Shown here: in pieces, positions 9,880-40,372 of the stretch
Numbering within the stretch: the first letter of the stretch is position 1
Layout: each line of letters begins with the position of its first letter
Source of the DNA: Clostridiales bacterium
GTDB taxonomy: Bacteria > Bacillota > Clostridia > Lachnospirales > Lachnospiraceae
Length of the DNA stretch: 51,087 bases
Direction of reading: 5' to 3'
NCBI GenBank assembly: GCA_029100885.1
Contig: JAQXPY010000147.1
Coordinates: forward strand, 1 to 51,087
Program-made: the position numbers and the translations under genes
Notes under the pieces: model-generated
Told to the model about the DNA's origin: nothing
Databases searched by the model: none
Seen by the model: only the letters and a program-made list of their open reading frames with translations

Positions 9880-12825
9880 TCAGAAGAGATCTCGCACCGA
9901 CTTGAACATGTTGCTGCATTCATCTATCTGACCTGCGTTTCCTATAGCGCATATCGCTTCCGATCTGAGCAGCGCTCTTATATACGGCGCTGTGTTTCTG
10001 ATATCCTCTGCGGTACAGCTGAGCATCTGATCCCTTTCCAGCTGAAGCTCCTCATCTGTTGTACCGAAGAAGCAGTCTGAGATTGCCTGATTTGCCCTGT
10101 CCGAGGCGGTCAGTGGTCTGTCTGAGGCAGAAACAGCTCCGATAATATACTTTGCAACAGTACTCTCATCTCCCTGCCAGTTCTCCAGATACTCCGGAAG
10201 CTCTTCAAATACATCGTTTGTCTTTGCCACCTCAGGATCTCTGTAGGAAACAAGGAAGCATCTGCCTGTCCTTGCAAAGCCAGACATGCACCCGTAGGCT
10301 CCTCCCAGTACCCTGAGTCTGATCCAGAGATAGTCGTAGTTGAGCATGACTCTGAGAACCTTAAGCACACCGGTACTGTCCAGTCCCGCTTCAGTAAAGC
10401 TTCCGCAGCGTGCCACATAATTGACCTGGGAGCTGGTCCTGAAGCCTTCATTCAGCGTGCTCAACGGCATCAGCTGCCTACCCTGCGTATCTCTCTGCTC
10501 CTGAGGTGATGCGCTGCATTCTCTCAGATCGTTTTCAAAGGCTTCAATGCTGCTGCCTAATCTTTCATTTACTTCCCTGCTTCCGTACAATGCATATACA
10601 GCCTGTCCCTGTCTGAATATCCTGTCATGCACGCTCCTTAAGGAGCTTATGAAGCGTTTCATATGCACGGGCTCCTTTGTCAGTCTGCAGGCAGCATTTA
10701 CAAAGTCGTAATAAGCGATTCCCGATGTCAGGTCATTGAATCTCGCAGCCTTGCTGATATAAGACGAGGCTCTCAACGCGGCTGCCGTATGCGAGCCGGA
10801 TTCGAGCTTTGACTGCTGTCTGCTTCTTATCTCCAGAAGCAGCTCGGTGAGTCTTTCCGGATCATCAAAGACAGTACAGTTGATCATCTCCGAGGTCAGC
10901 CTGAAGCCCTCTTCCACCTTGCTGTCAAGAGTATGGAGCTCCGCGGAAAGCATTCCCGAGAGCTTGAATTCCAGTTTTCCTTCTCCTCTTTCCGTATAAG
11001 GCTCTATTGCAAAGGATATTCCTCCGGTGTTCAGCATGACCTCATCATACAGGTCACTGTAGCTGCGCTTCACGGTATTGAGTTCTCCTATGATATCAGT
11101 CAGAAGCGCCGCAAACTGAAGCTCGTCCTCATTAAGCCCCTCAACAGGGAACAGCACCTTTATGTACGATATTCCTCTGGTGTCCGCCTCGGTAAATATC
11201 CTGCTGCCGTTTCTGACCGTGCCTATGTGCTCGGCCTTCCTGTCTATATCGCTTATCTGAAGGACCGGAAGCATCGCCAGTGTCTCCGGGCTGTCCGGCT
11301 CTGCCTGATAAGCCTTGAGTTCCTCTGTCTGCTCGGCTATCCTCTTCTTTTCCTCAAAGCTCATGCTGTCCTTGAGGAGCTTTAGTTTTTCTGCATTTTC
11401 TCTGTTCTCACGCTCTGTCATTCCCTTGTCCGGAACGATCCTTACACGAGCTCTGAAGCTGTTTCCGATAAGAAATCTCTCGATCTTTTTCTCAAAGAAG
11501 TCTGTATCGATCAGTTTCCTGACCTCTTCGACCGCCTCATTGTAGAACAGATATGTGAACGGACTTTCATCATAAAGCCATGATCCGAACATTCCGATCC
11601 CTATGGCAAGTCCGGCAGGAAGGCTGCCGTAATCCTCCTCCCTGAACCTGAACTCTATGTAATTAAGCTCCGCCCTCAGACTCTTCTTGTTGATTCCGTT
11701 CCTTACAAGCTCGTTCAGAGTGCTGTCGATGATCCTCTCAAACTCCTCCTGCCTGTCCTCATCGGTATTCTTTGCCACTATCGAAAAATATGGCTGAAGT
11801 ATCTCGGAGCAGACACCCCCGTAGATATCCTCTCCGATGCCTGCCTTTACAAGAGCCTCCCTGAGTACCGCTCCCGGCGATGTCAGAAGAACCGATTCCA
11901 GTATCTGCCATGCAATGGCATTTACCTGTGTAGGCTCGTCCTCAATGACATAGTTCTCGGACAGGTAGCATTTTCCCTTTTCCGATTCGTTTTCTCCGAT
12001 GGCATAGAGCCTTCTAACATTTTTTGGTTCCTCAAACGGCTTCTGAGGCTTTATTTCCGAATTGACCGATATTCTCTCATATCTGTCAAGATAATTGCTG
12101 TCGATCCACTCCAGCTTTTCCTCCATATCCATATCTCCGTAGAGATAGATATATGAGTTTGACGGATGATAATAAGTTCTGTGGAAATCCAGAAACTCTT
12201 CGTAGCTGAGCTTTGGAATATCCGAAGGCAGTCCGCCGGATTCGTTGCTGTAGACAGTATCGCAGAACAGCTCGTTCATGGTATATCTTTCCAAAACGGA
12301 ATCCGGATTGGAAAAGGCTCCCTTCATTTCATTATATACAACACCGTTGATCTTAAGCTCTTCCTTCTCTCCGCCCAGATCCGTCAGTTCATAATGCCAG
12401 CCCTCCTGACTGAATATCTTAGGCTCCTCATATACCTTCGGATTGAATACAGAATCCAGATATACATCCATCAGATTCATGAAATCCTTATCATTCATGG
12501 ATGCGATCGGATATATTGTTTTGTCAGGAAAGGTCATTGCATTCAGAAAAGTGTTGAGAGAGCCCTTGGCCAGCTCAACAAAGGGATCCTTGAGCGGATA
12601 TTTTTCCGATCCGCACAGAACCGAATGCTCCATAATATGGGCTACACCCGTGGAATTCTCCGGAGTTGTCCTGAAGCCGATCATAAAGACCTTGTTCTTA
12701 TCCTCATTTTTCAGCGTAAATACCCTTGCGCCTGTCCTGATATGCTCATAGACCGTTCCGGTTCCCCTGAGCTCATCAATTACTTTTTCTTCTATTAAAC
12801 GGTACTTTAGGCATGTGTGATTCAT
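9880..12825 (-). CDS. M16C-family insulinase/presequence protease-like metallopeptidase
   Basis: 981 aa; HxxEH motif in GVAHIMEHSVLCGSEKYPLKDPFVELAKGSLNTFLNAMTFPDKTIYP. Confidence 0.93.
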   Translation of the reverse strand: MNHTCLKYRLIEEKVIDELRGTGTVYEHIRTGARVFTLKNEDKNKVFMIGFRTTPENSTGVAHIMEHSVLCGSEKYPLKDPFVELAKGSLNTFLNAMTFPDKTIYPIASMNDKDFMNLMDVYLDSVFNPKVYEEPKIFSQEGWHYELTDLGGEKEELKINGVVYNEMKGAFSNPDSVLERYTMNELFCDTVYSNESGGLPSDIPKLSYEEFLDFHRTYYHPSNSYIYLYGDMDMEEKLEWIDSNYLDRYERISVNSEIKPQKPFEEPKNVRRLYAIGENESEKGKCYLSENYVIEDEPTQVNAIAWQILESVLLTSPGAVLREALVKAGIGEDIYGGVCSEILQPYFSIVAKNTDEDRQEEFERIIDSTLNELVRNGINKKSLRAELNYIEFRFREEDYGSLPAGLAIGIGMFGSWLYDESPFTYLFYNEAVEEVRKLIDTDFFEKKIERFLIGNSFRARVRIVPDKGMTERENRENAEKLKLLKDSMSFEEKKRIAEQTEELKAYQAEPDSPETLAMLPVLQISDIDRKAEHIGTVRNGSRIFTEADTRGISYIKVLFPVEGLNEDELQFAALLTDIIGELNTVKRSYSDLYDEVMLNTGGISFAIEPYTERGEGKLEFKLSGMLSAELHTLDSKVEEGFRLTSEMINCTVFDDPERLTELLLEIRSRQQSKLESGSHTAAALRASSYISKAARFNDLTSGIAYYDFVNAACRLTKEPVHMKRFISSLRSVHDRIFRQGQAVYALYGSREVNERLGSSIEAFENDLRECSASPQEQRDTQGRQLMPLSTLNEGFRTSSQVNYVARCGSFTEAGLDSTGVLKVLRVMLNYDYLWIRLRVLGGAYGCMSGFARTGRCFLVSYRDPEVAKTNDVFEELPEYLENWQGDESTVAKYIIGAVSASDRPLTASDRANQAISDCFFGTTDEELQLERDQMLSCTAEDIRNTAPYIRALLRSEAICAIGNAGQIDECSNMFKSVRDLF

Positions 12826-18504: not shown

Positions 18505-18604
18505 ATTTCCTCCGATTATCTATCTGTTCTGCTTTCTTTCTTCCTTTCAGGCTTCTGTCAAGTTCATTCGCAAAGCCGCTGCTTCCTTTGCTCATGCTCT
18601 TGAC

Positions 18605-18671
18605 GTCTGCTAAGCAGACCCTGATTCCGAGCAGGATAAAAAAATTATGTTAACATATTTTTATCCTGCTC
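18605..18671. repeat. two adjacent inverted repeats downstream of ruvX
   Basis: GTCTGCTAAGCAGAC (18605-18619) and GAGCAGGATAAAAA...TTTTTATCCTGCTC (18629-18671, 14-bp perfect arms). Confidence 0.85.
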
Positions 18672-18675
18672 TTCA

Positions 18676-19128
18676 TCAGAAGCCTGAATTAGGTACTTTG
18701 TTCTTCATGTAATCTTCAAGAATGATGGCTGCGGCTATGCGGTCGATGTATTGCTTGCGTCTGGAATGCTCTACCCGGGTCTCTTCAAGTATCTCGTCGG
18801 CGCTGACGGTGCTGAGCCTCTCATCCCACAGCTCCACCGGAATGTCCAGCCCCTCTGCCTCCAGCCTTCTCGCAAGCTCTCCGGCAAAGGTCTCTGTTTT
18901 TATCGCTCTTTCTCCCCTGCTGTCATCCATATTGAGTGGAAGTCCTATGACGATCCTTCCGACTTCATACTCTGCCGCAAGAGCGGCTATGCGTCTGAAG
19001 GAGGATCTGAGCCCGTTCTCCTTTTCTCTGACAATAGTCTCCAGTGGTGATGCAATTACATTTAACGGATCGCTGATCGCGACTCCTATGGTCTTTGAAC
19101 CAAAATCCAGTCCCATCAATCTCTTCAA
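18676..19128 (-). CDS. ruvX: Holliday junction resolvase RuvX/YqgF
   Basis: RLMGLDFGSKTIGVAISDPLNVIASPLETI, VIGLPLNMDDSRGERA, LWDERLSTVSADE. Confidence 0.95.
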   Translation of the reverse strand: MKRLMGLDFGSKTIGVAISDPLNVIASPLETIVREKENGLRSSFRRIAALAAEYEVGRIVIGLPLNMDDSRGERAIKTETFAGELARRLEAEGLDIPVELWDERLSTVSADEILEETRVEHSRRKQYIDRIAAAIILEDYMKNKVPNSGF

Positions 19129-40061: not shown

Positions 40062-40090
40062 GCAGAAATCTTTTGCATGCAAACTGAATT

Positions 40091-40250
40091 ACCTGTTCAG
40101 GCATCTGCCGCAGGGCGGAAGGAAAAATATGCCGGCATATTTTTCCGGACGCAAAGCGGCAGGGTCTGAGGAGCAGACAGCAGACGCATGAGCAGTCGGA
40201 GCGCGAAGCGTGACGGCTGCGAATGCAGGCTGCGGGATGCCTGAACAGGT
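40091..40250. repeat. nested inverted-repeat element with 15-bp terminal inverted repeats
   Basis: ACCTGTTCAGGCATC (40091-40105) / GATGCCTGAACAGGT (40236-40250); inner CTGCCGC/GCGGCAG and 26-bp palindrome GGAAAAATATGCCGGCATATTTTTCC (40121-40146). Confidence 0.9.
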
Positions 40251-40318
40251 CGATGAATGTTTTTTTGCAGACAGCAGACGCATGAGCAGTCGGGCGCGAA
40301 GCGGCACGGCTGCGAATG
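40173..40318. repeat. 52-53 bp direct repeat, two copies
   Basis: GCAGACAGCAGACGCATGAGCAGTCGG(A)GCGCGAAGCG(TG/GC)ACGGCTGCGAATG at 40173-40225 and 40267-40318. Confidence 0.92.
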
Positions 40319-40343: not shown

Positions 40344-40372
40344 TTGTATACCAAATTCTTCAATGATAAAAT
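40344..40372 (+). promoter_or_regulatory. predicted promoter of the aminotransferase gene
   Basis: TTGTAT-17 nt-TAAAAT upstream of ATG at 40406. Confidence 0.5.

Follow-up and report, generated by a model that had tools for sequence, protein, structure and literature searches.

A probable MITE-like copy of a Clostridiales-1 (RF01699) structural variant between the rnf and aminotransferase genes of a Lachnospiraceae genome

The spacer between the divergent rnf and aminotransferase genes of a Clostridiales bacterium (GCA_029100885.1, contig JAQXPY010000147.1) contains a compact unit of nested palindromes and direct repeats, which raises the question of what kind of element this unit is. Here, the window is the whole 51,087-nucleotide stretch of DNA that was analyzed. 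A previous sequence-only reading of the window left three options for the unit: a small structured RNA gene, a MITE/REP-like element, or a boundary that acts at the level of the DNA. Our analysis leads us to assign a probability of about 0.83 to the reading that positions 40088-40253 are a non-autonomous, MITE-like element, a decayed copy of a Clostridiales-1 (RF01699) structural variant, based on sequence comparison. Among the three options, the MITE/REP-like one is supported because the element is present in dozens of copies, because target duplications flank its intact relatives, and because it is absent from the corresponding spacer of a congener (G020). We found no support for a DNA boundary.

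Anatomy of the unit

The perfect 15-bp terminal inverted repeat described in the sequence-only reading is present, with 40091-40105 (ACCTGTTCAGGCATC, plus strand) being the perfect complement of 40236-40250 (GATGCCTGAACAGGT, plus strand). A repeat of this length is well beyond chance; when the 441-bp region was mononucleotide-shuffled 60 times, the longest inverted repeat to appear was 9 bp. Likewise, the CTGCCGC/GCGGCAG arms (40105-40111 and 40156-40162) and the perfect 26-bp palindrome that they enclose (40121-40146) were found as that reading had described them. The minimum free energy of 40085-40275 is -96.6 kcal/mol, compared to -60.5 kcal/mol (sd 3.5) for dinucleotide shuffles (z = -10.3), and the minus-strand fold of the unit is also more stable than its dinucleotide shuffles (z = -7.8).

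In the predicted plus-strand fold, a stem (P1) closes the structure around a long hairpin (P2), a small one (P3), and a fourth one (P4). The left arm of P1 is the inner terminal inverted repeat at 40091-40105, and its right arm at 40236-40250 is assigned from complementarity, the fold, and covariation. P2 (40105-40162, plus strand) includes the 26-bp palindrome and is built from 29-nt arms that are 79% complementary and 0 nt apart. P3 (40164-40178, plus strand) has the form GTCTG-AGGAG-CAGAC and is diagnostic of the variant, with TGAGGAGCAGAC being invariant in 21 of 21 aligned copies. P4 (40180-40234, plus strand) carries an ATGAG (40188-40192) and GCGAAT (40219-40224) core, predicted to form tandem G-A mismatches. 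The direct repeats of the unit also proved to be real: 40173-40199 is identical to 40267-40293 at 27 of 27 positions, and 40201-40225 matches 40294-40318 at 23 of 25 positions (92%). They arise because 40267-40318 (plus strand) is a truncated second 3' module, a duplicate of 40173-40225 that comprises the end of P3 together with P4.

The sequence-only reading also predicted that a plus-strand transcript would end as a closed stem followed by U7. This prediction is not supported: the T7 tract (40260-40266) begins 9 nt past the stem, and a consensus scan detected no terminator-like site. Of the two promoters that were said to point away from the unit, the leftward one (40061-40034) was recovered by the scan (11/12) and the rightward one (40344-40372) was not. 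The same scan gave no promoter directed into the unit, and the sole open reading frame across it, which encodes 82 amino acids on the minus strand, is spurious.

Sibling copies in the host genome and their covariation

The host assembly is a fragmented Lachnospiraceae MAG of 1.96 Mb in 183 contigs, and several copies of the element lie at contig ends. A BLASTN search of this assembly with the unit, proposed in the sequence-only reading, returned 30 matches; in this model-free comparison with the window DNA, the other genomic loci are 75-82% identical (best E = 8e-14). We also built a covariance model (R1) from an alignment of 21 copies, 20 of which come from the host genome and one from another genome, G015. 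R1 has 63 matches in the MAG. They represent fewer than 63 separate copies, since some are partial and others fall on the reverse strand of a palindromic copy that is already matched. The matches include the window copy at 40088-40253 (plus strand; model positions 1-165), whose score of 128.5 bits is not independent since this copy is one of the 21 sequences used to build the model. A second copy of the same variant is present in the window at 18539-18697 on the minus strand (model positions 1-165, 76.9 bits, E = 3.9e-18). Upstream of it lies a coding region, and downstream an ATG that is preceded by GGAGG.

The genomic copies are built alike, measure about 165 bp, are intergenic, and are dispersed through the genome. 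In sibling copies, complete 3' modules are tandemly repeated. Tandem arrays of 3' modules, with units of about 75-80 bp, were seen at L010 with L069 (at the ends of contigs C82 and C172), at L037, and at L070. Such arrays probably broke the assembly, since two contig ends share one array. One copy upstream of a uvrA-like gene occurs between the same flanks in two forms, one with a tandem 3' module (L004, contig C25) and one with an internal deletion (L049, contig C98), apparently as variation among strains in the MAG. One of two hits of a pattern scan in genome contigs, in Candidatus Peribacteria (L055), was rejected as a chance match because its surroundings lack the element.

Compensatory substitutions, which the sequence-only reading had suggested looking for among homologs, are abundant in the 21-copy alignment, where 43 of 68 base pairs show two-sided changes. 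With both further copies and compensatory substitutions present, the check that this reading had set for refuting its own interpretation spoke against refutation. The covariation score is 0.262 for the structure and 0.063-0.077 for slid structures. In the alignment, 81.9% of cells are paired, a percentage that is lifted by the fact that the structure was derived by folding the aligned sequences themselves, so more weight rests on the two-sided changes. P2 is very variable in sequence among the copies, yet its pairing is retained, with two-sided changes in 22 of 26 pairs. P1 has an invariant or nearly invariant core and also covaries between copies; for example, columns 8 and 183 are A-U in 12 copies and G-C in 7. 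The motif ATGAGCA is invariant and TGCGAAT nearly so.

Relation to the Clostridiales-1 RNA

When the whole window was scanned against Rfam at gathering scores, there were zero matches. The relation to RF01699 was therefore hidden, and it was revealed by a permissive scan of sibling copies in which three loci match RF01699 over positions 1-166 of 166, with E-values down to 2.7e-6. The host genome has 19 matches to RF01699 within the E threshold of 0.001, two of which exceed the gathering cut-off of 48 bits (49.7 and 48.8) and several of which score 35-47 bits. The window copy aligns poorly with the model and scores 17.9 bits (E = 0.15), and for this reason it is a variant rather than a member of the family by score.

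Both types have a P1 closing stem, a long P2 hairpin, an ATGAG...CGAAT hairpin, and a length of about 165 nt. They differ in the order of their parts. In canonical RF01699, P1 is followed by P2 with a CUUG loop, the ATGAG...CGAAT hairpin, a GGGAG/CGGAG hairpin, and P1', whereas in the window type P1 is followed by P2, the GTCTG-AGGAG-CAGAC hairpin, the ATGAG...CGAAT hairpin, and P1'. Thus, the TGAGGAGCA hairpin that precedes the ATGAG hairpin is an addition absent from canonical RF01699, and the canonical final hairpin (GGAUUGCGGGAG...CGGAGCAAUCC) is missing from the window type, its model positions being skipped in the alignment of a sibling copy. The CUUG loop of P2 is found in RF01699 and in most sibling copies, while in the window copy the loop of P2 is the palindrome center. 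The terminal sequences of the variant (GTAACTATTCAG) are also unlike the canonical ends. These comparisons make the window type a structural variant, or divergent relative, of the Clostridiales-1 RNA. In the congener G020, RF01699 matches 38 times (E up to 1) and R1 0 times, and G015 has matches to both models; judged by these matches, both structural classes are present within the genus. Clostridiales-1 has been an Rfam orphan since 2010, and the second structural class shows that part of the family escapes the Rfam model.

Rfam files the family as an sRNA, and Weinberg et al. 2010 (PMC2864571) rated Clostridiales-1 as probably an RNA and not cis-regulatory. In the library that we searched, few papers mention Clostridiales-1 by name, and among the titles listed there is none on its function. 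Given this filing and the abundance of compensatory change, the unit may yet be a structured RNA, and we considered whether the copies might be a family of functional, trans-acting small RNA genes, multiplied in the genome and active as plus-strand RNA. The strong covariation and the invariant loop and mismatch motifs would suit such genes, as would the 2010 rating. In addition, G-U pairs exceed A-C combinations at paired positions of the plus strand, at 56:30 for our own copies and 90:51 for the canonical ones, compared to about 55:45 when shuffled, and deriving the structure from the minus strand does not remove the bias. We take this excess as only a hint because it is modest, because the copies share ancestry and are not independent, and because one column pair contributes nine of the 56. 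Covariation would also be expected of a selected DNA hairpin, and no promoter was found to read into the window copy. Moreover, the dozens of copies, the variable tandem modules, and the target duplications and deletions to about 35 bp described below are traits of a mobile repeat. We therefore hold a family of trans-acting small RNA genes to be a minority possibility.

Ends, target duplications, and genomic setting of the family

RF01699 is present in 217 of 397 sampled genomes of the family Lachnospiraceae. The per-genome counts of that survey are capped; in a separate count, the complete genome G318 has 92 matches, G279 has 31, and G438 has 3. Examination of 53 G318 copies with their flanks revealed that the Rfam model spans only the body of a larger element, which runs from GATACCAGGGTCAAAAG to CTTTTGACCCCAACATC and measures about 183-204 bp in most G318 copies. 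Intact canonical copies carry conserved terminal repeats, GATRYYRGGGTCAAAAG, and the same ends occur across many genera. A search with these ends as a pattern located 127 sites, spread over 7 of 8 genomes, compared to 0 for the reversed control; some of the sites are shortened derivatives, the smallest of about 35 bp. At L253 (1762 and 3145) and L269 (1367), hairpins of about 35-50 bp contain little beyond the two element ends and look like terminal deletion derivatives.

Exact target duplications of 7 bp (21 copies) or 8 bp (8 copies) flank 29 of 41 intact canonical copies. With shuffled right flanks, the mean number of duplications is 1.2 and the maximum in 5000 shuffles is 6. These duplications are of AT-rich sequence, roughly of the form AT-N-N-TAT. 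In the case of the window variant, whose copies are more decayed than the canonical set, at least 7 of 8 bases beside the ends match in 5 of 22 copies, a result reached by 0 of 5000 shuffles. Insertion of the family by a putative transposase that creates 7-8 bp duplications is well supported as an inference. In a search that covered one transposase family, PF00872, no autonomous partner sharing the element ends was found, and none of the loci that we fetched has a long terminal-repeat pair around a transposase. IS256-type transposases (PF00872) were rejected as the partner, since the termini of their loci in seven genomes differ from the element ends. A 1.4-kb inward-facing pair of ends in G366 was likewise rejected as an autonomous element because it consists of two separate mini-hairpins (about 35 bp) around unrelated genes.

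Like MITEs, the element is short, non-coding, intergenic, and present in high copy number, and it has terminal inverted repeats (15/15 bp in the window copy). Target duplications are likewise seen at the level of the family, but the flanks of the window copy match at only 3 of 8 positions and lack a duplication. Unlike MITEs, the element has a body of several hairpins in which internal motifs are conserved and paired positions covary. In the mechanism that we propose, a DDE-type transposase would act in trans on the ends of the element and move it, with duplication of 7-8 bp of AT-rich target. Selection might maintain the self-complementary body either because the folded nucleic acid is needed for mobilization or because the transcript has a role, and the tandem 3' modules could have arisen later by slippage or recombination. 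More tentatively, Clostridiales-1 may be a mobile element whose folded RNA, or single-stranded DNA, is required for its spread, with the window copy belonging to a second class. If this were true, selection on structure would be acting on a bacterial transposable element.

The element also resembles REP/REPIN sequences in being a small, extragenic, multicopy palindrome, which suggests mobilization by a RAYT (Y1) transposase as an alternative. It is larger, however, with four hairpins, and its family shows target duplications of 7-8 bp, with which REP/REPINs are not known to be associated. We consider this alternative highly improbable. The BOX elements of Streptococcus pneumoniae are modular, strongly folding intergenic repeats with a tandemly variable module. 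As far as we know, they are not related to the element in sequence, and the variable part of the element is the 3' module with the right arm of P1.

Returning to the rnfC/aminotransferase locus, the two genes are likewise divergent neighbors in G020, whose rnfC product is 91% identical over 331 residues. The rnfC-proximal 100 bp or so of the two spacers align, divergence begins at the start of the element, and the orthologous G020 spacer contains no element. Because the remainder of the spacer has diverged too, this is an absence and not a clean empty site, so the sequence-only reading's proposal of finding an empty site here is borne out only as far as the absence. The G020 spacer contains a glycine riboswitch (RF00504; L153 2780-2876, minus strand, 55.2 bits) upstream of the aminotransferase gene; the window has no Rfam hit. 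This position raises the possibility that the window copy acts in cis on the rnf operon or the aminotransferase gene (as an attenuator, an mRNA stabilizer, or a regulator), taking the place of the riboswitch of the congener. With gene neighbors taken from simple ORF calling, 51 G318 copies are divergent in 17 cases, convergent in 4, tandem co-directional in 20, and anti in 10. These counts indicate that G318 copies favor upstream regions, and the preference for divergent spacers may reflect the choice of AT-rich targets. In the host genome, 16 classifiable copies are tandem co-directional in 5 cases, anti in 5, divergent in 5, and convergent in 1, and they adjoin unrelated genes with neither a consistent neighbor nor a preferred orientation. 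Together with the lack of a terminator-like site in the scan, this makes a cis-acting element very unlikely. At this locus, the MITE-like insertion is probably passive, and any influence that it has on its two neighboring genes would be incidental.

Judged by its copy numbers, its terminal repeats, and the target duplications, Clostridiales-1 either is itself a mobile element or travels within one, and this element is widespread in Lachnospiraceae. A mobile element would shift the relevant questions to transposition and the effects of insertion, besides riboregulation. A search of plasmids for the element gave zero matches; matches in a phage collection are to 15 unannotated human fecal contigs, and matches in IMG/VR amount to one and two stretches. 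One IMG/VR contig (L212) has a canonical copy at 12267-12460, near the contig end. Some G318 copies, e.g. those at 1798432, 2135662, and 3261493 (L252, L250, and L239), form a 204-bp subfamily with an insert in the body (GGGTGCTGAACATCC...GTTTAGCAC), the start of which resembles the right P1 arm of the window variant (GGGTGCTGAACAG).
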